63,219 nucleotides of DNA from Thermosipho affectus. Lineage in GTDB: Bacteria > Thermotogota > Thermotogae > Thermotogales > Fervidobacteriaceae. Positions 17,521 through 28,773 of this stretch are shown here, one piece after another. The stretch covers positions 1 to 63,219 of the forward strand of contig NZ_LBFC01000001.1 of NCBI RefSeq assembly GCF_001990485.1, in the 5' to 3' direction. A program made the translations under genes and the position numbers. The notes beneath the pieces are model-generated. The model saw only the letters and a program-made list of their open reading frames with translations, was not told the DNA's origin and made no database searches. Numbering within the stretch: the stretch's first letter is position 1; every line of letters begins with the position of its first letter.

Positions 17521-17556
17521 AAGAAAAAAAGACTAAGTGCATTTAAGCACTTAGTC
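17521..17556 (-). terminator. Rho-independent terminator of the purine operon
   Basis: GACTAAGTGC (17531-17540) and GCACTTAGTC (17547-17556) form a perfect 10-bp stem with a 6-base loop. On the minus strand it is followed by a run of seven T. It lies 67 bases after the amidohydrolase stop. Confidence 0.85.
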
Positions 17557-17623: not shown

Positions 17624-18982
17624 TTAACCTTTTAATGATTTTTCAAGGATCTTTTTAGAAATAATGTTATGTTTTTCAATATATTTACTTATTTCAAAAT
17701 TTACAAACTCGCTATTAAATATCTTAATCTCCCCATTAATAACGGATAAATCGACTTGTTTTGCATCGCAGAGTAATATTGCATTAATAGGATTGTGAAG
17801 TGCTCCCGCAAATTCAACTTTATCAAGTTTAAAACCAATAAAATCTGCTGCTTTGTCTTTTGCTAATGTACCAAGATAATCATCTACGTGTAAAACTTTT
17901 GCACCACCCAAAGTACCCATCTTCAAAATTTCTTCGATCGTTACAGCTTTAGCACCATACTTTACTCTTTGTAATAAAAGTGCATTTCTCAATTCTAGCA
18001 ACATGTTATTTGTGTCATTGCTAGCACTTCCGTCAACTGCTATACCTATTTTTAATTTTTTCTTCATTTCTGTAACTGGGGATATTCCAGACCCCAACCG
18101 CATATTTGATGATGGACAATGGGCCATTCCCACATTATTACTGGACAATTTTTCTATATCTTTTTCGTTTAAATAAACTAAATGTGCAAACCACACTTTA
18201 TCGTTTAACCATCCTAATTCTTCCATATAATCTACTGGTCGCTTACCAAATTTTTCAATACAATACATTTCTTCATCGTAAGTTTCGGCAAGATGTGTGT
18301 GGAGAAGCACGTTATATTTTTCTGATAACTTTAAAGTTTCAATCATAAGAGTTTTAGTAACTGAAAATGGTGAACATGGAGCCAAGGCTATTCTTAACAT
18401 TGAGTACTTTGATGCGTCGTGGTATTGTTTGATAACTCTTTCAGATTCGATTAATATTTCGTCATCTTTTTGTACCACAGTATCAGGTGGTAACCCTCCA
18501 TCTTTTTTGCTCAAAGACATACTACCTCTAGTTGGATAAAATCTAATTCCAATATTTTTGGCAGCTTCAATTTCAGCATCAAACAATTTATTGTTCCCGA
18601 ATGGATACAAATAAAGATGATCGGTAGTCGTTGTAACACCCGTTTTAATCATTTCATAAGTTGCGATTATTGTACTTATATATATTGCTTCTTCGTCTAT
18701 AAACTTCCAAATCTCATATAAATAAACAAGCCAATCAAACAGTTTACTATTTTCAGCAAGTCCCCTTGTTAAGGTTTGAAACATGTGATGATGTGTATTT
18801 ATAAATCCTGGAATAACCATATATCCATTTAAATCATAGACTTCGTCAGCTTCAATTCCCTCGTGATTTTTACCAATATCTATGATCCTGTTATTTTCTA
18901 CCAAAATGTATCCATTCTTTAAGTTTCCTATTTTTTCATCAAATGTGTATATATAGGAAATGTTCTTAAACAATTTTTTCAT
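17624..18982 (-). CDS. Amidohydrolase, probable 8-oxoguanine deaminase
   Basis: From the ATG at 18982 the protein has 452 residues; the longer frame (19003) is rejected because GAGGTG lies just before the inner ATG. It is a metal-dependent amidohydrolase of the AtzA/TrzN/SsnA type: GFINTHHHMFQTLTRG, LLHTHLAET, GMAHCPSSNMRLGSGI and VDGSASNDTNNM hold the metal and catalytic residues. These and APCSPFSVT closely resemble 8-oxoguanine deaminases, which convert 8-oxoguanine to urate; SsnA-like naming is the alternative. It is last in the operon with adenine deaminase and the molybdenum hydroxylase, ten bases after the PLP gene, and is followed by a terminator. Confidence 0.85.
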   Translation of the reverse strand: MKKLFKNISYIYTFDEKIGNLKNGYILVENNRIIDIGKNHEGIEADEVYDLNGYMVIPGFINTHHHMFQTLTRGLAENSKLFDWLVYLYEIWKFIDEEAIYISTIIATYEMIKTGVTTTTDHLYLYPFGNNKLFDAEIEAAKNIGIRFYPTRGSMSLSKKDGGLPPDTVVQKDDEILIESERVIKQYHDASKYSMLRIALAPCSPFSVTKTLMIETLKLSEKYNVLLHTHLAETYDEEMYCIEKFGKRPVDYMEELGWLNDKVWFAHLVYLNEKDIEKLSSNNVGMAHCPSSNMRLGSGISPVTEMKKKLKIGIAVDGSASNDTNNMLLELRNALLLQRVKYGAKAVTIEEILKMGTLGGAKVLHVDDYLGTLAKDKAADFIGFKLDKVEFAGALHNPINAILLCDAKQVDLSVINGEIKIFNSEFVNFEISKYIEKHNIISKKILEKSLKG

Positions 18983-18992
18983 GTAATTCACC

Positions 18993-20408
18993 TCAATCTT
19001 CAAAATAAATCTTTTCTAACTCATTTTTGTGTTTTTCTCTATACTCAACAATTAATTCATCGATTTCTTCAACTTTTTCTTGTTCCTTTTTCCAATAGTT
19101 ATAATCTCTTTGTGCGTTTAATTCTTCAACAGTTTTCCCCTGTTGTTCTACCCAAGTATAATATTTTAAATTATGCCATCTTTCTTTGTTATACATAGTG
19201 CCCTCAAAAATCCAAGAAGGTTCCTGATATGAAATTATTCTTTCGTATCTATTTTTTGCTTCATTTAAAGTTAACTTTCCAAATTTTTCTTCTAAATCTT
19301 TCATAACGGACCTATATCTTTCAATTGAATCGGTAGCAACTATAAAGATATTATCATCAGCACCGAATTTATAGTGTTTTGCAACTTTTATTGCTCCAAT
19401 CAGATTTGCAACACCAGAAATTCCAAATTTATCCGAAATAAATTCAATTAAATCTTTATTTACAAAACTTTTCAAAAATTCTTTTCCAACTGGATCACTA
19501 AAAACATGTAGCATTTTTTTCGAGTCTATGTCATCAACTAGTACTACGGCATCATTATTTAAAACGTTATGTATCCAAGTTACGTGCTTATCGCCAATAC
19601 CTTGAATGTCATGTCCTCCGTATCCATTAAGTGAGATCGTAGGACATTGTAAAGGTTCTACTGTTACAACTTTTGCATTTGGAAATTCTTGTTTTACTCT
19701 ATCTCCAGAAGCAATTGTTCCTGCAGAACCGACGCCAAGAACAACAGCAGAAATTTTTCCATTACCTATATTTCTCTTTTTTACAAGATCAATCATTGAA
19801 TTTCCTGTTACATAGTAGTGAAATCTATAGTTTCCAAATTCCTCAAATTGATTTAAAATCCTTATTTTTTCAGGATTTTTGTTATATAACTCCTTTGCTT
19901 TATCATAAATTTCTTTGACATTTGATTCACATCCAGGAGTTGCAATAACCTCAGCACCATATGCTCTGATAATTTCAAATCTTTCCTTACTCATAAGTTC
20001 TGGCAATAATACAATTGATTTATAATTCATTCGTGATGATACCCAAGCACCGCCTATACCGTAATTTCCAGTAGAAGGCCATACTAAAGTATGTTTAAAT
20101 GGATCTACTTCTCCACTTACAGTTTTCTCTGCTAAAATTGAATATGTTGCACCAACTTTATGACTTCCAGATGGAAATTCCTTTGCATAAAGCACTATAA
20201 TATTTGGTTTTACACCTGTTAATTCACTTGGAAGAATAAAATAGTAGTACTCGTTATTTTCGTTCTTCCATGTGATATTAAATAAATTAATAGGATGCAA
20301 TGGATCTTTCTTTTTCGTTTCAAGTGCTCTTTTTCTAATCTTTGAATCAACTTTTTCTGGGTTAAGCATTTCAGAAAATGTAGGCCCAATCACAGGAACT
20401 TTTTTCAT
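18993..20408 (-). CDS. PLP-dependent fold-type II enzyme (cysteine synthase/lyase-like)
   Basis: The ATG at 20408 is used (471 residues); the upstream GTG at 20417 abuts the Shine-Dalgarno GGAGTGA. The PLP lysine is in PSGSHKVGATYS, a phosphate loop is suggested by GVGSAGTIAS, and PSTGNYGIGGAWVSS is the asparagine-containing substrate loop, all typical of fold-type II beta-family enzymes (cysteine or threonine synthase, ammonia-lyases). The C-terminal 100 residues are charged and helical. I cannot assign a substrate. It lies inside the purine operon, overlapping the end of xdhA in its leader, a position analogous to diaminopropionate ammonia-lyase near xdhD and ssnA in E. coli, but it is not clearly that enzyme. 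Confidence 0.82.
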   Translation of the reverse strand: MKKVPVIGPTFSEMLNPEKVDSKIRKRALETKKKDPLHPINLFNITWKNENNEYYYFILPSELTGVKPNIIVLYAKEFPSGSHKVGATYSILAEKTVSGEVDPFKHTLVWPSTGNYGIGGAWVSSRMNYKSIVLLPELMSKERFEIIRAYGAEVIATPGCESNVKEIYDKAKELYNKNPEKIRILNQFEEFGNYRFHYYVTGNSMIDLVKKRNIGNGKISAVVLGVGSAGTIASGDRVKQEFPNAKVVTVEPLQCPTISLNGYGGHDIQGIGDKHVTWIHNVLNNDAVVLVDDIDSKKMLHVFSDPVGKEFLKSFVNKDLIEFISDKFGISGVANLIGAIKVAKHYKFGADDNIFIVATDSIERYRSVMKDLEEKFGKLTLNEAKNRYERIISYQEPSWIFEGTMYNKERWHNLKYYTWVEQQGKTVEELNAQRDYNYWKKEQEKVEEIDELIVEYREKHKNELEKIYFED

Positions 20409-20413
20409 AACTA

Positions 20414-22672
20414 TCACTCCTTTTTTATAATTTCTTCAATAGATACAGGAATTTTATTTAACTGCTTCCCTATAGCAGCTGATATAGCGTTTAAAATAGA
20501 AGGTGGGGCACTCATTAGTGATGGTTCACCCAATCCTTTGGCACCAAATGGACCTTCTGAAAAACTATCCTCTACAAAGTCAACATAAAATTCAATAGGA
20601 ATATCTTTAATTGTGGGAATTAAATAGTTGTTGAAATTTTTAGTTGTGATTTTTCCATCTTTGTACTTTAAATCTTCAAAAAGAACATACCCCATTCCTT
20701 GAATAACTCCACCATGTACCTGTCCAATTGCTCCATCCAAATTTATAACTTTTCCTATATCATGGCATACCCAAACCTTTTTTAATTCTATTTTGCCAGT
20801 TAAAATATCGACTTCTACTAATGATAATTGCGTAGCATACGAATAAGTAACATATGCTTCACCAACACCATCTTCGTGATTAAAATCAAGTTTTGGAGTT
20901 TTGTACCATCCCGTTTCAGATAACTTTACGTTATTATTATTACAGAGCATAGCAATCTCATTAAAAGAAAATTTTTTATCATTCACGTAAACAAAGCCAT
21001 CTTTGAATTTTATTTCATCTTTTTTTACGTTGAAGTATTCTCCCAAGAAGTTTAACATGTTGTTCTTAATTTTTTCGGTAGCAATTTTTACAGCATTACC
21101 ACTGAAAAAAGTAGTTCTTGATGCAACTGTTGGCCCACTATCCTGGATAAATAATGTTTGAGGCTGTAATACCCTAATTTTTGATAAATCTTGACCTAAA
21201 ATTTCTGAAACAATTATTGAAATTGTTGTTTTGGCACCTTGTCCCATTTCAGTATTGCCTATCATAATGGCAACTGTTCCATCAGATTGAACATTAACCA
21301 TTGCTGTAGCTCCATCTAAAAATTGTCCACCAGCTCCTAAGCTCACCCCATAGAATATGTGAGCCCAGCCTAGACCTTGTTTTTTTAACAAATTGCTTTC
21401 GTTAAATTTTTTAACACTTTCCTTTAATTGTTCGTAGTTTGAAGCTTCATATACCTTTTTTAAAGTTTCCTTGGCCCCCACAGATTCAGTAAGTAAATGT
21501 CCTGTGGCAGTTTGTTTATTCTTTTCAAGTGCATTTTTCATTCTGATATCGAATGGATCAATATTAAGTTTTTTAGCAGCTATGTCCATCATTGATTCCA
21601 TTGCCATCAAAACTTGTGGAGAACCAAATCCTCGGAAAGCACCGCATGGAACTTTATTTGTGTAAACTCCATAGACATCGACTTTTACGTTATCAACACT
21701 GTATGCCCCACATGCATGAACCATTGTTCTGTACATAACTATTGGAGATAATGTGGAATATGCCCCCATATCAAGATAAATTTTTGCTTTAACACCAAGA
21801 ATTTTTCCTTCTTTATTAAATGACACCTCATAAAATGATTTGCTAGGATGCCTTTTACTAGTTTCTTTAATATCCATCTCACGTGTGTAAATTAACTTAA
21901 CAGGCCTTTTAGTTAAAAAAGATAACAAAGCAGCCTTTGAGGCAATATAAGATGGCACATCTTCTTTTCCGCCAAATCCTCCACCCGTTTCAGTTTGGAT
22001 AACATTAATATCTTTTAAATCTATTCCTAATATTTTTGATACATCTTTTTGTACATAAAATGGGCATTGTGCAGATACATAGAGTTCTAATTTATCAGAA
22101 TAATTTGCAACAACACCTTGTGTTTCAAGATAAGCATGTTCTTGATATCCAGTTTCAAAGGTTTCTTTGATTATTAAATCTGCATTTTTAAACGCATTTT
22201 CAACATTCCCTCTTCTAATTTTTCTTGTAAATGCCACATTATTCTCATGCACCAAAACTTCATTTTTTATTGCATCGTCTATAGTAAAAACGCCTGGTAG
22301 CTCTTTTATTTTAAACTTTACCAATTCTTTTGCTTTTTTTGCAATTTCTGGAGTTTCTGCCGCAATTATAGCAAGAACATCTCCTTCAAATCTTACTTTT
22401 TCACCTTCAGGAACTAAAAAAAACATATCATCAATTACATGACCAAATTTATTTGTGCCAGGTACATCTTTATAAGTGGCAATCTTAACAACACCAGGTA
22501 ATTTTTCTGCTTCACTTATATCTATATGTTCAAGTATTCCATGTGGAACATCTGCATAAACAACCTCTGTATAGAGCATGTTCGGAAAGTAATAATCAGA
22601 AGCATATTTAGAAATACCGTAAGCTTTTTCTTTTGCATCAATTCTTATTACTTTTTTTCCAATTATATTCAT
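20414..22672 (-). CDS. xdhA: Xanthine dehydrogenase-family molybdopterin-binding subunit
   Basis: The 752-residue protein is a full-length large subunit of the molybdenum hydroxylase family. Visible motifs are ETGGGFGGKED, GAFRGFGSPQ, IGNTEMGQGAK, and KGLGEPSL near the C terminus, whose Glu corresponds to the catalytic base of xanthine dehydrogenase. It hydroxylates purines using water and passes electrons to Fe-S and FAD subunits. Those two subunits are not adjacent or anywhere else in the window. The gene follows adenine deaminase by three bases and precedes the PLP enzyme. Hypoxanthine or xanthine is the likely substrate from context; other purines at C8 are possible. Confidence 0.92.
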   Translation of the reverse strand: MNIIGKKVIRIDAKEKAYGISKYASDYYFPNMLYTEVVYADVPHGILEHIDISEAEKLPGVVKIATYKDVPGTNKFGHVIDDMFFLVPEGEKVRFEGDVLAIIAAETPEIAKKAKELVKFKIKELPGVFTIDDAIKNEVLVHENNVAFTRKIRRGNVENAFKNADLIIKETFETGYQEHAYLETQGVVANYSDKLELYVSAQCPFYVQKDVSKILGIDLKDINVIQTETGGGFGGKEDVPSYIASKAALLSFLTKRPVKLIYTREMDIKETSKRHPSKSFYEVSFNKEGKILGVKAKIYLDMGAYSTLSPIVMYRTMVHACGAYSVDNVKVDVYGVYTNKVPCGAFRGFGSPQVLMAMESMMDIAAKKLNIDPFDIRMKNALEKNKQTATGHLLTESVGAKETLKKVYEASNYEQLKESVKKFNESNLLKKQGLGWAHIFYGVSLGAGGQFLDGATAMVNVQSDGTVAIMIGNTEMGQGAKTTISIIVSEILGQDLSKIRVLQPQTLFIQDSGPTVASRTTFFSGNAVKIATEKIKNNMLNFLGEYFNVKKDEIKFKDGFVYVNDKKFSFNEIAMLCNNNNVKLSETGWYKTPKLDFNHEDGVGEAYVTYSYATQLSLVEVDILTGKIELKKVWVCHDIGKVINLDGAIGQVHGGVIQGMGYVLFEDLKYKDGKITTKNFNNYLIPTIKDIPIEFYVDFVEDSFSEGPFGAKGLGEPSLMSAPPSILNAISAAIGKQLNKIPVSIEEIIKKE

Positions 22673-22675
22673 ATA

Positions 22676-24400
22676 TTACACCTCCACAAATAAATCCACA
22701 ATTTTTTGCTTTTCAACATCAATTAATCCTTTGTCAGTTATCTTTAATTTTGGAATTACAGCTAATTGTAAGAAATGAATATTCATTAAAACATCTTTTC
22801 TTGGCCCCAGAGATTCGATTGCAGTTTTTATTTGTTTTAAATTGTTAATTACATATGTATAATCTCTATCCGACATAAGACCGGCGATAGGTAATGATAA
22901 TTCGGAAATTACTTTACCGCCTTTTACAACAACTATTCCCCCATTAATTTCTTGAATTCGTCTTATTGCTTTATTCATATCATTATCATTTTCGCCAACA
23001 ACTGCTAAATTATGTGAATCATGACCAATTGTAGTTGCAATAGCTCCTTTCTTTATTCCCGTACCTTTAACAAAACCTATTGTATATCCCGAGGCTTTGT
23101 GCCTATCAAAGACAACCATTTTTACAATATCATTTTCAACATCTGAAATTATCTCATTTTTAGATACCTTAGGCGAAATAATTATTTCCTCAGTAAAAAG
23201 AGAATAGTCTTTAATAGAAATTACCCTAATCTTTTTATTTTGATTTTTGATTTTTAAGTTATAGTCTTTTCTTATGTTTATAACTCCTAAAGTTTCTGGT
23301 ACATCCTTAAAAATACTTTCAATTGTTAAATTTAGTTTATTGTTCTCCACCACAAATCTTGAATCTTTTATTACAAATTTAATGTTAAAACTTTCTAAAT
23401 CATCAATCAAAACAATATCAGCTTTGTACCCAGGTGAAATAGCACCCATACTTCTTAGATTAAAATATTTTGCGGTATTAATTGTCGCCATTCTTATTGC
23501 TATAACTGGTGGAATACCGTTATCAATCGATTCTTTGACAATCTGATTAATATGTCCTCTTTTATTAATATCCTCTGGATCCCTATCATCTGTACAAAAT
23601 GAAAAAAAGAAGTGGTTCATCAAATCAACGGCGGGTAAAAGAGATTTTAAATTTCTTGCTGCGGTACCTTCTCTAATAAAAATATGCATTCCTTTTGAGA
23701 GTTTTTCTAACGCTTCATTGACAGTTTCGCATTCGTGATCGGATCTAACAAATGCATCAATATAAGCGTTAAGATTTTTTCCAGATAATCCAGGAGCATG
23801 ACCATCAATTCTTTTGTATTTATGACGCAAAATTTCAATTTTAGTAATTAATTCTCTATTACAATTAATTACCCCTGGATAGTTCATAACTTCACCTAAT
23901 GCAATAATTCGAAATGGATACTTTTCAATTAAACTAACCATATCTTCTGGCCCAAGTATTGCTCCTGAAGTTTCCAAAGAAGTTGCAGGGACAGCTGAAG
24001 GAATTGCAAAATATACATTTAATGGAATTCCTTCAGTAGCCTTAATCATATAATTAATCCCCTCAACTCCTAAAACATTTGCAATTTCATGTGGATCAGC
24101 AATTACAGTTGTTGTCCCATTTAGTAAAACCATTTTTGCAAATTCAATTGGTGAAAGCATAGAACTTTCAATATGTACATGAGCATCAATCAAGCCTGGA
24201 ATTGCATATAATCCATTTGCATCAAATATTTTTTTTGCATCTGTATATTCAAATCCAATACCTGCTATTCTCTTTTTGTATAATGCAATATTTGTATTTT
24301 CAATTTTTCCAGTATACACATTAACTAAATTTACGTTTTTTATTAATAAGTCAGGAACTTTTTTTCCAAGTGCTACTGGAACCATTTCACAAATTTTCAT
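22676..24400 (-). CDS. ade: Adenine deaminase
   Basis: The 574-residue protein matches bacterial adenine deaminase (AdeC) in length and motifs: GLIDAHVHIESSML and IADPHEIANVLG (metal site), DGHAPGLSG, and FCTDDRDPEDI. The C-terminal domain contains TIGHDSHNL, conserved in the family. It deaminates adenine to hypoxanthine in the cytoplasm with a manganese/iron centre. It is first in the four-gene leftward operon that continues with xdhA, so its product can feed the next enzyme. The ATG follows AAAGGGGGGAT. The upstream region holds dyad symmetries but no recognisable purine riboswitch. Confidence 0.95.
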   Translation of the reverse strand: MKICEMVPVALGKKVPDLLIKNVNLVNVYTGKIENTNIALYKKRIAGIGFEYTDAKKIFDANGLYAIPGLIDAHVHIESSMLSPIEFAKMVLLNGTTTVIADPHEIANVLGVEGINYMIKATEGIPLNVYFAIPSAVPATSLETSGAILGPEDMVSLIEKYPFRIIALGEVMNYPGVINCNRELITKIEILRHKYKRIDGHAPGLSGKNLNAYIDAFVRSDHECETVNEALEKLSKGMHIFIREGTAARNLKSLLPAVDLMNHFFFSFCTDDRDPEDINKRGHINQIVKESIDNGIPPVIAIRMATINTAKYFNLRSMGAISPGYKADIVLIDDLESFNIKFVIKDSRFVVENNKLNLTIESIFKDVPETLGVINIRKDYNLKIKNQNKKIRVISIKDYSLFTEEIIISPKVSKNEIISDVENDIVKMVVFDRHKASGYTIGFVKGTGIKKGAIATTIGHDSHNLAVVGENDNDMNKAIRRIQEINGGIVVVKGGKVISELSLPIAGLMSDRDYTYVINNLKQIKTAIESLGPRKDVLMNIHFLQLAVIPKLKITDKGLIDVEKQKIVDLFVEV

Positions 24401-24583: not shown

Positions 24584-24611
24584 AAAAAAAGCTGGCCAAA
24601 ATGGCCAGCTT
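24584..24611 (-). terminator. Rho-independent terminator of the opp operon
   Basis: AAGCTGGCCA (24589-24598), loop AAA, TGGCCAGCTT (24602-24611): a perfect 10-bp G+C-rich stem followed on the minus strand by a T run. It lies just past the oppF stop. Confidence 0.92.
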
Positions 24612-24631
24612 TCGTTATAGATAAATCTTTA

Positions 24632-25771
24632 TTATAATGAACCCGGGAAATGACATGCCACAAAATGACCAGGACTAATCTCTCTTAATTCAGGTTCTTC
24701 TTTGGAACATATATCTTTTGCAACGGGACATCTTGGATGAAATCTGCACCCCTTTGGTGGGTTTACTGGACTTGGAACATCTCCTTTCAGTATAATTCTA
24801 TTCTTTTTATATTCAGGATCAGGCACAGGTATTGCACTCATAAGGGCTTTTGTGTAAGGGTGCATTGGACTGTCAAATAATTCTTTTTTAGAAGCGTTCT
24901 CAACTATTTTACCAAGATACATAACAACTACTCTATCAGAAATATACTTCACAACAGAAAGGTCATGTGAAATAAAAATATATGTAAGGTTATGTTTTTT
25001 CTGCAAATCTATCATTAAATTAATTACCTGTGACCTAATTGAAACATCTAAAGCGGCTACTGCTTCGTCGGCTACTATTAACTTTGGATTCATTAATAAG
25101 GCCCTTGCTATTCCAATCCTTTGCCTTTGCCCACCCGAAAATTGGTGTGGAAACCTGTACATATGCTCACCATGAATTCCCACTTCTTCTAGTGCATTTC
25201 TAACTTTTTCTATGACTTCTGACTTTTTAATTACTCCATGTAATACAGGGCCTTCTGATACAATTGTCTTCACTCTAATTCTTGGATTTAAAGAACTATA
25301 CGGATCTTGAAATACTATTTGCATAGTTCTTCTAAATTCTGACCTTTTCTCGGAAAGATTTGAAAGAAGTTTATTATAAAATCCATTCTCTCCTAATTCT
25401 TTATAAAGTTCATAATACTTTTTATCTATACCGTTCAATTCTCGTGAGTCAATATTTTTAAATTTATCCACATAAGTTGTTTTTAGATACTTTTTTGCGC
25501 GAAATCTTGGCATAAAATAATACGTTGTATCTTCACCATCAACAATTATTCTTCCAGAAGTTGGCTCGTATAATCGCAATAACGTCATACCTGCAGTAGT
25601 CTTTCCACATCCAGACTCACCAACTAATCCTACTGTCTCACCTTCATAGACATCAAAAGTTATATCATCGACTGCTTTAACCCATGCAACAACTCTTTTG
25701 AAAACTCCTGCTCTAATTGGAAAGTATTTTACAAGATTTTCTATTCTAAGTAATACCTTTTTTTCGCTCAT
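24632..25771 (-). CDS. oppF: Oligopeptide ABC transporter ATP-binding protein OppF, with an insertion
   Basis: The 379-residue ATPase has Walker [10 protein letters not shown] (51-59), Q-loop QDPYSSLNP (155-163), signature [14 protein letters not shown], Walker [13 protein letters not shown], and the OppD/F C-terminal cysteine motif [14 protein letters not shown] that can bind Fe-S. About 100 residues separate Walker A from the Q-loop where about 50 is usual; the extra charged helical segment is roughly 83-145. It powers peptide (or sugar, in Thermotogales) uptake with OppD. The ATG overlaps the oppD stop by four bases. Confidence 0.92.
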
Positions 25772-26793
25772 GCACTTTCACCAGCCTTTTTTAGTTTCTG
25801 TGCTTCTTCAATTTTATGATAATAAAAACATCTTGAATAATGATCTTCCCCAACCTTTTGTAATGGAGGAATTTCTTTTCTACATCTTTCATCTGAAAAT
25901 TCACATCTTGTATTAAACCTACATCCCGGTGGAAAATGTAACGGATCAGGTACAATACCTGGAATATTGTACAATCTATCCTGATCAATATCCAATCTTG
26001 GTATAGAATTTAACAATCCCCACGTGTACGGATGTCTCATTTTCTTAAAAACTTCCTTTACATCAGCTGTTTCCATAACCATACCACCATACATAACCAC
26101 AACTCTATCCGCATTTTCTGCTATTACCCCTACATCATGTGTAATAAATATAATTGCCATACCATATTCTTTTTGTAGTTGTTTCATTAAATCTAGAATT
26201 TGAGCCTGTATAGTTACATCCAAAGCAGTAGTAGGCTCATCTGCGATTAACAATTTCGGTCTACACGACAGAGCCATTGCAATCATTGCACGTTGCCTCA
26301 TACCACCCGAAAGTTCATGTGGATATTCATCAATCCTTTTTTCTGGTTCAGGAATTCCAACTTTCCTAAGCATGTCAATTGCCATTTCTCTTGCTTCTTT
26401 TTTATTAACATCTTGATGAAGTAAAATTGCTTCCATAATTTGTTCGCCAATTGTGAAAACCGGATTTAAAGCCACCATTGGTTCCTGAAAAATCATTGCA
26501 ATATCATTTCCTCTTATTTTTCTCATTTCATCATCAGAAAGTTCCAAAAGATTTTTACCTTCAAAAATAATTTCACTACCTTCTAAAATCTCTCCGTTTG
26601 GATCAAGTAATCTTAATATTGAAAGAGATGTAACACTTTTTCCACTACCCGATTCACCAACAATTCCAAGCGTTTCACCAGGATACACTTCAAAATCCAC
26701 ACCATCAACAGCCTTTACAATCCCATCTTCTGTATGAAAATATGTTTTAAGATTTTTTACTTGCAATAATGGTTTCTTTTCCAACTTTACCAC
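25768..26793 (-). CDS. oppD: Oligopeptide ABC transporter ATP-binding protein OppD
   Basis: The 341-residue ATPase shows Walker [10 protein letters not shown]-loop [10 protein letters not shown], signature [15 protein letters not shown], Walker [13 protein letters not shown] and the C-terminal OppD/F cysteine motif [14 protein letters not shown]. Its length is typical, without the insertion seen in OppF. It acts on the cytoplasmic face with OppF and the OppBC permeases. It lies four bases after oppC and overlaps oppF by four bases. Confidence 0.94.
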
Positions 26794-26797
26794 TCCT

Positions 26798-27712
26798 TTA
26801 TTTCAATTTCGGATCAAATACATCTCTAAGGGCATCACCCACCAAATTCCACGCAAGCACAAACAATACCATTGCCATACCTGGATAAAAAATAGTATAC
26901 CAATACGCAAAAGCCTGTCCACTAGAACCTAAAATATAATTTCTTGTATAATTTAACATCGAACCCCAATCAGCATAACCAATAGGTGCACCTAATCCTA
27001 GAAATGACAAGGCAGCAGCAGTAATAACAAGTGACCCAAGTCTCATTGTTGCCTGAACTAACACAGGAAAAATTGTATTCGGTAGTACATGTCTTAAAAT
27101 AATAACATAATCTTTTATACCAAGTGCTTTAGCAGCAAGTACAAATTGTTCCTCTTTAACCTGTAAAATGTTAGCTCTAATAAGCCTTGCAACAGCCATC
27201 CAACCAAAAACAGTCATAGCTATCATCACCTTATCAAGTCCACTCCCCAAAATAGTGGTTAATACCATGGCAGCAAGTAGAAACGGAATTGAAAGAAAAA
27301 CATCAGTAATTCTCATTAAAACTTCATCAATCCATCCACCAAAATACCCTGCAATTGAACCTATTATTAAACCTATTATTGTAGACAAAATAACCACGGT
27401 TAAACCAATTTTAAATGCTGTTCTAGTTCCCCAAACAACACCGTAATAAATATCTCTTCCCGCAATCATTCCAAATGGATGATCCTTACTTGGTTGTACT
27501 GGATCAGAGCTCCATGAAAGAATTGGCATAATATATGGGTCCTCTAATTTAGAAGGATTTCCATTTTCATCTGGAAACATTGGATTCACAGGTGGTGCAA
27601 GAAATGGTGCAAAGATTGCCACAAATGTAAAAAAAAGTAATAATGAGAAGCCTAATACTGCAGATGGATTTCTAAATAATTTTCTTAAAGTTCTTTTAAA
27701 TTCTGTATTCAC
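26798..27712 (-). CDS. oppC: Oligopeptide ABC transporter permease OppC
   Basis: The 304-residue permease has an N-terminal OppC-N helix ([20 protein letters not shown]), a large loop containing [15 protein letters not shown] that matches the family's DxxGRD motif, and the BPD-transport permease domain with [19 protein letters not shown] as EAA loop. About six membrane helices. It forms the channel with OppB. The gene follows oppB by 14 bases with a GGAGGTG site. Confidence 0.94.
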
Positions 27713-27726
27713 TCAAAAACACCTCC

Positions 27727-28773
27727 TTAACCGAGTCTAATCCTTGGATCAAGAATAGCATATAGTATATCAATTATAAGATTACCAATAACAAGCAACG
27801 TAGAATAAAAGAGTGTACTCCCCAATATTGCTGCATAATCAAGCTGTGTTGCAGCCTGTGCAGTAAATCTCCCCATACCAATTCTATTGAATATAACCTC
27901 AACAATAACTGTACCGGCTAACAAACCAATAACCATAGCACCTGCAACTGTTACCACAGGAATCATTGCATTTTTCTTGGCATGTTTATGAATAACATCC
28001 TTTTCTGGAACACCTTTGGCTCTTGCAGTCCTAACATACTCTTTCCCCAATACTTCCAACATGCTTGACCTTGTTATTCTTAAAAGATATGCCCACCACA
28101 ACCATGAAATTGTCAAAATGGGACCTATTAAATGTCTAAGCGCATCCCAAAAAATGTCTAATCTACCATTTAAAAGAGCATCAATTGTCAATATTTTAGT
28201 AAATCTATGAAATTCTCCTGATTTAACCACTTGTTCTGCCCATCCACTTAAAGTACCAGGTGGAAACCATCCTAATACTGAATAAAATATCATTAACACA
28301 ATTAATCCAAACACAAAATCTGGTAATGACCACCCTATTATTGCGAAAATCCTAATAAAATGATCTATAAATTTATCTCTGTTAACAGCAGCAGTAACTC
28401 CTAACCAAATACCTACAACTACTACTGGTATAAATGCGTAAATAGCAAGTTCAATAGTATAAGGTATTCTGTCTTTAATGGCTTTTGCAACTGGTTCCTT
28501 TGCTGTAACCGACCAACCAAGATCTCCTTTTAAAACACCACTGATCCATTTAAAATACCTCGTCCACATTGGATCATTCAATCCATACTGTTCAATCAAT
28601 TTGTCCAGTTCTTCATTTGACAACTTATCGAACATATTAGGATTTACATATGCTGACAACATTTTCTCTGGACCTAAAATTTCGGTAAAACTAAAAATAA
28701 CCAATGTTACACCAAAAATAATCAATGGTAACAACAAAAGCCTCCGAATAATATACGCCGTCAACTGTAACAC
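27727..28773 (-). CDS. oppB: Oligopeptide ABC transporter permease OppB
   Basis: The 348-residue permease has the OppB N terminus (YIIRRLLLLPLIIFGVTLVIF), six membrane helices and the EAA loop TARAKGVPEKDVIHKHAKKN. It is first in the oppBCDF operon. No periplasmic binding protein gene is adjacent: the next upstream gene is uvrC. The start follows GGAGGTGTTAC and a good promoter lies at 28807-28834. Confidence 0.94.
   Translation of the reverse strand: MLQLTAYIIRRLLLLPLIIFGVTLVIFSFTEILGPEKMLSAYVNPNMFDKLSNEELDKLIEQYGLNDPMWTRYFKWISGVLKGDLGWSVTAKEPVAKAIKDRIPYTIELAIYAFIPVVVVGIWLGVTAAVNRDKFIDHFIRIFAIIGWSLPDFVFGLIVLMIFYSVLGWFPPGTLSGWAEQVVKSGEFHRFTKILTIDALLNGRLDIFWDALRHLIGPILTISWLWWAYLLRITRSSMLEVLGKEYVRTARAKGVPEKDVIHKHAKKNAMIPVVTVAGAMVIGLLAGTVIVEVIFNRIGMGRFTAQAATQLDYAAILGSTLFYSTLLVIGNLIIDILYAILDPRIRLG

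Follow-up and report, generated by a model that had tools for sequence, protein, structure and literature searches.

How a xanthine dehydrogenase (XDH)-family molybdenum hydroxylase can persist in a genome where the cofactor-synthesis genes searched for are not found, and why its gene adjoins that of an unfamiliar pyridoxal phosphate (PLP) enzyme, are the questions raised by a four-gene operon of the heat-loving bacterium Thermosipho affectus. The operon (operon A) lies at positions 17624-24400 of the window, a 63,219-nt stretch of contig NZ_LBFC01000001.1 (assembly GCF_001990485.1), and encodes an adenine deaminase (Ade), a molybdenum-hydroxylase catalytic subunit (XdhA), a fold-type II PLP enzyme (PLP1), and an 8-oxoguanine deaminase (Ogd). 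The most far-reaching answer we entertain, and rate slightly short of probable, is that in much of the Thermotogota XDH-family enzymes are active without home-made molybdenum cofactor (Moco), and that an unnamed PLP enzyme family with its own C-terminal domain replaces YgeX in anaerobic purine breakdown. The organisms would be obligate molybdopterin scavengers, some keeping only the insertase MoeA, or would possess a novel cofactor route.

Layout and gene identities of operon A

Operon A consists of four minus-strand open reading frames (ORFs) in the order ade-xdhA-PLP1-ogd: ade (22676..24400, 574 amino acids), xdhA (20414..22672, 752 amino acids), PLP1 (18993..20417, 474 amino acids), and ogd (17624..19003, 459 amino acids). 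The ade-xdhA gap is 3 bp, xdhA and PLP1 overlap by 4 bp, and PLP1 and ogd overlap by 11 bp. Ade contains the Pfam domains Adenine_deam_C and Amidohydro_1 and exceeds the TIGR01178 cut-off (585.3 bits; cut-off, 472.5), and Ogd exceeds that of NF006055 (584 bits; cut-off, 532). The ORF layout and these scores confirm the original prediction, made from the sequence alone, of a tight operon of adenine deaminase, xdhA, a PLP fold-type II enzyme, and an 8-oxoguanine-deaminase-like amidohydrolase. XdhA contains MoCoBD_1, MoCoBD_2, and Ald_Xan_dh_C, aligns with xanthine oxidase in the Protein Data Bank (PDB), and matches XDH models without passing any (TIGR02965, the best, 506.8 bits, cut-off 849.5; XdhA_XDHase 473.9 bits, cut-off 780). 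The only Pfam match of PLP1 is PALP. Judged by these profile scores, XdhA and PLP1 each belong clearly to a broad family, yet neither passed a curated model.

A terminator-like hairpin (24587..24613, minus strand) precedes operon A, 3' of the upstream ABC-transporter ATPase gene, and another (17531..17556, minus strand) lies just past ogd, so operon A reads as a single transcription unit. The pattern scan found four hairpins in the stretch against 2.8 expected by shuffling, and their weight comes only from their placement. Upstream on the same strand, beyond the first of these hairpins, the window carries dipeptide/oligopeptide-type ABC transporter genes (24632-28773; two ATPases, two permeases). 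Rfam returned only tRNAs, and no Moco or purine riboswitch, in the window and in the fetched stretches L003, L178, L198, and L181.

Operon B and the probable partner subunits of XdhA

Iron-sulfur (Fe-S) and FAD subunits had been noted as absent, and XdhA accordingly called an orphan. The absence holds for operon A, where no Fe-S or FAD subunit gene is found among the four genes, and fails for the genome (1.77 Mb, 27 contigs, 99.83% complete). Profile searches of the latter gave two molybdenum (Mo) subunits, two FAD-domain matches, and two 2Fe-2S matches, all but XdhA in operon B on contig C22. Operon B (PLP2-FeSb-FADb-FADa-FeSa-Mo2; L003:13551-19559, fetched from 90000-109999 of C22) encodes a single Mo subunit alongside two FAD and two 2Fe-2S subunits. 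The product of its first gene, PLP2, appears threonine-synthase-like (TIGR00260, 198.4 bits, above the cut-off of 167.1; PRK08197, 225.7 bits, below the cut-off of 303). Both operons occur with identical gene order in all nine XDH-positive genomes of the host family, and the order ade-xdhA-PLP1-ogd was found in Mesoaciditoga too; in family f3, FADa-FeSa-Mo2 stands alone.

The two subunit pairs were separated by quick trees of 30 and 27 rows, from which Fe-S and FAD rows too long or too short for preset limits had been dropped. FeSa and FADa cluster with pairs adjoining Mo2 (SH-aLRT 99), and FeSb and FADb cluster with subunits adjoining XdhA-type Mo subunits in Spirochaetota, Halanaerobiales, Ignavibacteriota, and Bacteroidota (SH-aLRT 81-97); four rows that carry the label Mo2 in these trees belong to a third Mo type and sit with the b subunits. 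Because pair a groups with Mo2 and pair b with XdhA-type neighbors, XdhA is likely to work with FeSb and FADb made from operon B. We reject an orphan hydroxylase without partners in view of the two FAD and two 2Fe-2S subunits of operon B, whose pairing the trees suggest: one of the two pairs is surplus, and its relatives adjoin XdhA-type subunits.

In some related species (L163, L165, L172, L174), the third Mo-subunit type, about 33% identical to Mo2, has its own FAD and Fe-S genes and adjoins a UacT-like purine permease; it was not found in the host genome.

Active-site residues of XdhA and Mo2

Residues were compared using the PDB alignment to xanthine oxidase and a 37-row alignment. XdhA Q202, E237, R315, R347, F349, and E716 align with bovine xanthine oxidase Q767, E802, R880, R912, F914, and E1261, and the six are identical in every one of the 14 Thermotogales rows as well as in those of Mesoaciditoga and Kosmotogaceae. 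With its molybdopterin-binding domains and catalytic Glu (E716 = E1261), XdhA belongs to the xanthine oxidase family of molybdenum hydroxylases. Mo2 keeps the catalytic Glu and has Gln, Val, and Tyr at the E802, R880, and F914 positions; since these xanthine-oxidase purine residues are replaced, Mo2 probably acts on another substrate.

The same residues bear on the direction of the pathway. Thermotogales ferment, and Ogd is related to SsnA (163 bits, below the SsnA cut-off), both of which would suit a reductive operon A, in which XdhA dehydroxylates an oxopurine and Ogd acts, SsnA-like, on the reduced purine. The model for such a step would be E. coli XdhD, which reduces urate to yanthine (PMC12507026). 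However, XdhA keeps the E802/R880 pair of xanthine oxidase, where E. coli XdhD has Q and N in the 37-row alignment, and Ogd passes the cut-off for 8-oxoguanine deaminase and not that for SsnA. We regard a reductive operon as improbable and prefer hydroxylation toward urate as a plausible direction.

Molybdenum cofactor genes in the Thermotogota

A search of the genome for xdhB/xdhC-type and cofactor genes, proposed together with the original prediction, returned the two FAD and two Fe-S subunits described above and no match to MoaA (PF06463), MoeA (PF03453), or MoaC (PF01967) in the host genome, with MoaE, MoaD, and MogA not searched. The moa/moe searches succeeded in 11 of 14 control genomes; among the 45 genomes of the order they found MoaA in 13, MoeA in 19, and MoaC in 14. 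It is unlikely that the genes were missed through incomplete assembly, given the completeness of the host genome and a single-contig genome of the same genus (G025) that is also without all three. Because MoaA, MoaC, and MoeA are missing from the host genome, a scavenged cofactor appears to us the most likely supply for its hydroxylases, as a proposal held at just under even confidence.

Sixteen genomes of the order are XDH positive. MoaA, MoaC, and MoeA are all intact in three of them (G026, G029, and G030), MoeA alone is present in five (G001, only 71% complete; G032; and G042-G044), none of the three is found in seven, and G028 retains MoaC and MoeA only as broken remnants. A mogA-moaC-moaA-mod-moeA-like cluster in G026 (L178:6093-12174, contig C4) is represented in G028 only by pieces in place (L177:6396-9388, contig C14), the gene names being our reading of ORFs and profile matches. 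G028 nonetheless keeps three open XDH Mo subunits beside these decayed moa/mod/moe remnants. Ten XDH-negative genomes (g7-g9) possess all three cofactor genes.

The phylum survey covered 98 Thermotogota genomes at least 80% complete and tested MoaA only. XDH was found in 63 and MoaA in 33; 22 have both (one, G082, has MoaA with stops), and 41 have XDH without MoaA. The two are not associated across the phylum (Fisher p = 0.82). Among high-quality genomes, 34 of 51 XDH-positive ones are without MoaA; so are the single-contig genomes G025, G065, and G094, and several genera are wholly XDH positive and MoaA negative (g1, 4/4; g26, 9/9; g14, 3/3; g19, 4/4). Eleven Thermotogota genomes (G002-G011 and G045) have MoaA and no XDH-type Mo subunit was found in them; molybdenum or tungsten enzymes of other kinds may be at work there.

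Cells that possess a molybdenum enzyme are expected to produce the cofactor themselves, a rule that seems to fail in 41 of the 63 XDH-positive genomes. The number of such genomes, the single-contig ones included, and the missing association with MoaA would also fit hydroxylases that use a cofactor from a non-homologous route, or one other than molybdopterin, with no import. Orphan molybdoproteins are described from hundreds of organisms by Peng et al. 2018 (PMC6147048), who leave the cause open and suggest that new Moco components or Mo-independent forms could account for them. The residues around molybdopterin, however, are identical in MoaA-positive and MoaA-negative species, which favors the usual cofactor, and the intact MoeA retained without MoaA or MoaC in 5 of the 16 XDH-positive genomes of the order is better explained by an imported pterin. 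We therefore consider a different cofactor or route unlikely, though deserving of attention, and continue with scavenging. A precedent for uptake, albeit in an animal, is C. elegans, whose Moco can derive from bacterial food (PMC9793310). Literature searches on Thermosipho or Mesotoga XDH or Moco and on bacterial Moco scavenging, made mostly without subscription journals, gave nothing on point beyond PMC6147048, in whose main text the term Thermotog was not found.

Selection on the hydroxylase genes

Loss of the cofactor pathway could have left the hydroxylases as dead or dying genes, and the original prediction had taken a missing pathway to imply a dead enzyme. MoaA, MoaC, and MoeA are indeed gone, their loss is recent in G028 with its remnants, and G082 combines a broken MoaA with one broken XDH copy. 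The genes themselves do not look dead: in each of the 9 genomes, the 10 genes of the two operons have uninterrupted, full-length reading frames. For the pair G023-G024, neither of which has the pathway, dN is far below dS for xdhA (0.018/0.26), Mo2 (0.016/0.29), and PLP1 (0.007/0.22), as calculated by the Nei-Gojobori method, most other pairs being near dS saturation. Compared with ade, the dN of xdhA is no higher in the pathway-less pair G027-G028 (0.111 versus 0.115 for ade) than in the pathway-bearing pair G026-G029 (0.095 versus 0.099); in the closest pair, G023-G024, it is 0.018 versus 0.010, from few changes. Moreover, entire genera (g1 and g26 above) keep XDH without MoaA. Because the frames are open and dN is far below dS between two pathway-less species, purifying selection, as estimated from these substitution rates, is still acting on the hydroxylases despite the missing cofactor genes. 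The step from a missing pathway to a dead enzyme is thus opposed by intact frames, kept catalytic residues, and low dN/dS, and we regard dead genes as very improbable.

Sequence, structure, and gene neighborhoods of PLP1

PLP1 passes no NCBIfam cut-off (cysK, the best, 144.8 bits versus 351; CysM-type cysteine synthase, 80.3 versus 394; YgeX, 28.6 versus 532). In a quick tree of 32 rows, of the kind proposed with the original prediction, PLP1 forms a single clade beside CysK/CysM (SH-aLRT 99), apart from PLP2 and from YgeX, which falls outside on a long branch. YgeX, ThrC, and TdcB all have very long branches in this tree, making their placement unsure; two antisense ORFs (L138 and L139) were excluded. 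We reject PLP1 as YgeX on the cut-off and the tree, and as a cysteine synthase on the cut-offs and its separate clade. The host genome has a second, separate CysK-like match at C22:27818-28387.

The family is well conserved, with a mean column identity of 61% and 76 invariant columns in an alignment of 54 rows, and the PLP lysine is probably K87 in the motif GSHKVG. The predicted model (mean pLDDT 92.6) has a cysteine-synthase fold over residues ~14-396, followed by a C-terminal extension of about 80 residues (397-474) that is conserved, mostly helical, and without a Pfam match. The best hit of a structure search with this predicted model was a beta-cyanoalanine synthase (Z 37.8 over 312 residues), and the nearest folds include cysteine synthases and hydrogen-sulfide-producing enzymes such as Fn1055; YgeX was not among the 50 structural rows shown, which excludes nothing.

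A PLP1 relative of at least 69% identity is present in 15 of the 16 XDH-positive genomes of the order and in none of the 29 XDH-negative ones (Fisher p = 5e-11, kinship ignored). The sole exception, G043, is assembled in 230 contigs, and the co-occurrence repeats within each of the order's three families. Relatives were found in many phyla, and the best 80 of 571 stretches were kept, on which all locus counts rest; these counts are tblastn based, and many loci end at contig ends. Genes near PLP1 encode a YgeW-like carbamoyltransferase (30 loci), PLP2 (26), an XDH Mo subunit (25), YgeY (18), YqeA (15), SsnA (14), YgfK (14), and HyuA (13), and 24 loci carry at least three of seven urate-type genes. 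In 13 loci YgeY and YgeW are both found no more than 5 kb from PLP1, which thereby has the place that in E. coli belongs to YgeX, normally the last enzyme of bacterial urate breakdown, and YgeX was not found in the 80 loci, save for eight weak matches lying on PLP2. Since PLP1 occupies this position without a separate YgeX, it is possible by analogy, although we would not call it probable, that PLP1, alone or together with PLP2, fills the role of YgeX as a YgeX-like lyase. The likeness to the E. coli ygeX/xdhD/ssnA region that the original prediction had pointed out survives in part: PLP1 relatives replace YgeX in ygeW/ygeY/ssnA/ygfK-type clusters, whereas PLP1 is distinct from YgeX and clusters with cysteine synthases.

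The PLP1 family marks anaerobes whose urate-type clusters have no recognizable YgeX, and it might supply a step missing from the recently worked-out anaerobic purine pathway. Because the SsnA survey of the reductive urate work counts any PF00291 neighbor as YgeX, according to its Figure 3 legend, PLP1 could have been counted as YgeX there. Searches for a PLP family in urate breakdown and for an 8-oxoguanine deaminase/XDH gene cluster, again mostly without subscription journals, gave nothing on point.

The tie to XDH admits another explanation, in which PLP1 is cysteine-synthase-like and frees sulfide from cysteine for the Mo=S ligand. This would agree with the hydrogen-sulfide-producing enzymes and cysteine synthases among the nearest folds, with the link to XDH throughout the order save one genome, and with the absence of an XdhC-type maturase from the genes of the two operons. 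Yet at most 25 of the 80 loci have an XDH Mo subunit near PLP1, and many have a carbamoyltransferase, carbamate kinase, or hydantoinase without XDH; besides, NifS-like enzymes normally supply sulfur for molybdenum enzymes. A sulfide source is decidedly improbable in our judgment, and a YgeX-like lyase remains the function we prefer for PLP1.

Two other groups of loci were noted. In Chloroflexota-type loci (L020, L051, and others), PLP1, in several cases with PLP2, stands beside carbamoyltransferase, carbamate kinase, hydantoinase, and ABC-transporter genes, with no XDH within the fetched stretch. In Eisenbacteria-like loci (L023-L032 and L035), PLP1 is about 56% identical and has a neighbor of about 335 amino acids without an NCBIfam match at 1e-20; urate genes are not nearby.

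A proposed purine-catabolic module

Taken as a whole, operons A and B may together make up a single purine-catabolic module conserved in Thermosipho and its relatives, run on scavenged cofactor and with PLP1 as a YgeX-like lyase, a reading that we advance with a little less than even confidence. Ade would convert adenine to hypoxanthine, XdhA would hydroxylate purines with FeSb and FADb from operon B as electron carriers, and Ogd would deaminate 8-oxoguanine, the flows converging on urate. Later in the breakdown of the purine ring, PLP1 (perhaps with PLP2) would handle an amino acid with a beta leaving group, most likely 2,3-diaminopropionate, which is YgeX's job in E. coli. The hydroxylases would run on Moco or molybdopterin taken from neighbors.

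Several observations weigh against this module. We know of no bacterial molybdopterin importer. The position of xanthine oxidase F1009 is Leu in XdhA. Linkage between XdhA and PLP1 is lost in family f3, where the fetched stretches also show no FeSb/FADb beside XdhA. Of the 80 PLP1 loci, 32 have none of the seven urate genes, including 11 Eisenbacteria-like ones, which argues against a strict tie to urate. Finally, ygfK, hyuA, ygeW, and ygeY are not among the operon A genes or their next neighbors, the rest of the host genome not having been searched for them. The missing cofactor pathway is the strongest open point of the analysis; if the rule of home-made cofactor does fail in these species, the question of orphan molybdoproteins becomes experimentally addressable through the molybdopterin content of XdhA and its source.

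Comparison with known systems

Reductive urate breakdown has been solved in E. coli and C. difficile (PMC12507026, PMC12990295). The E. coli ygeW-ygeX-ygeY-hyuA / ygfK-ssnA-xdhD cluster described there, like operon A, brings together an XDH-family subunit, an SsnA/Ogd-type amidohydrolase, and a fold-type II PLP enzyme, and PLP1 relatives in other phyla adjoin YgeW, YgeY, YqeA, YgfK, SsnA, and HyuA. Unlike that cluster, operon A has an adenine deaminase and an 8-oxoguanine deaminase, has no ygfK, hyuA, ygeW, or ygeY within it, contains a PLP enzyme other than YgeX, and belongs to a genome in which MoaA, MoaC, and MoeA were not found. With XdhABC of E. coli and PucCDE, the present system shares Mo, FAD, and 2Fe-2S subunits encoded by separate genes, with the catalytic Glu and molybdopterin loop kept; it differs in that the subunits of two enzymes are split over two operons, the scores are below XDH cut-offs, and the three cofactor genes are absent.

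PLP1 resembles the cysteine synthase / beta-cyanoalanine synthase / cystathionine beta-synthase family in its fold (Z up to 37.8, 312 residues) and PLP motifs, and departs from it in the ~80 extra conserved C-terminal residues, the score of 144.8 bits against a cysK cut-off of 351, and the separate clade. The hydroxylases recall the orphan molybdoproteins of PMC6147048, which are xanthine oxidase-family proteins in genomes without a complete Moco pathway. In contrast to those cases, the pattern here is phylum-wide and found in single-contig genomes, and selection, active-site residues, and decaying cofactor genes accompany it. In gene content, the system varies in a new way on anaerobic purine modules already known.

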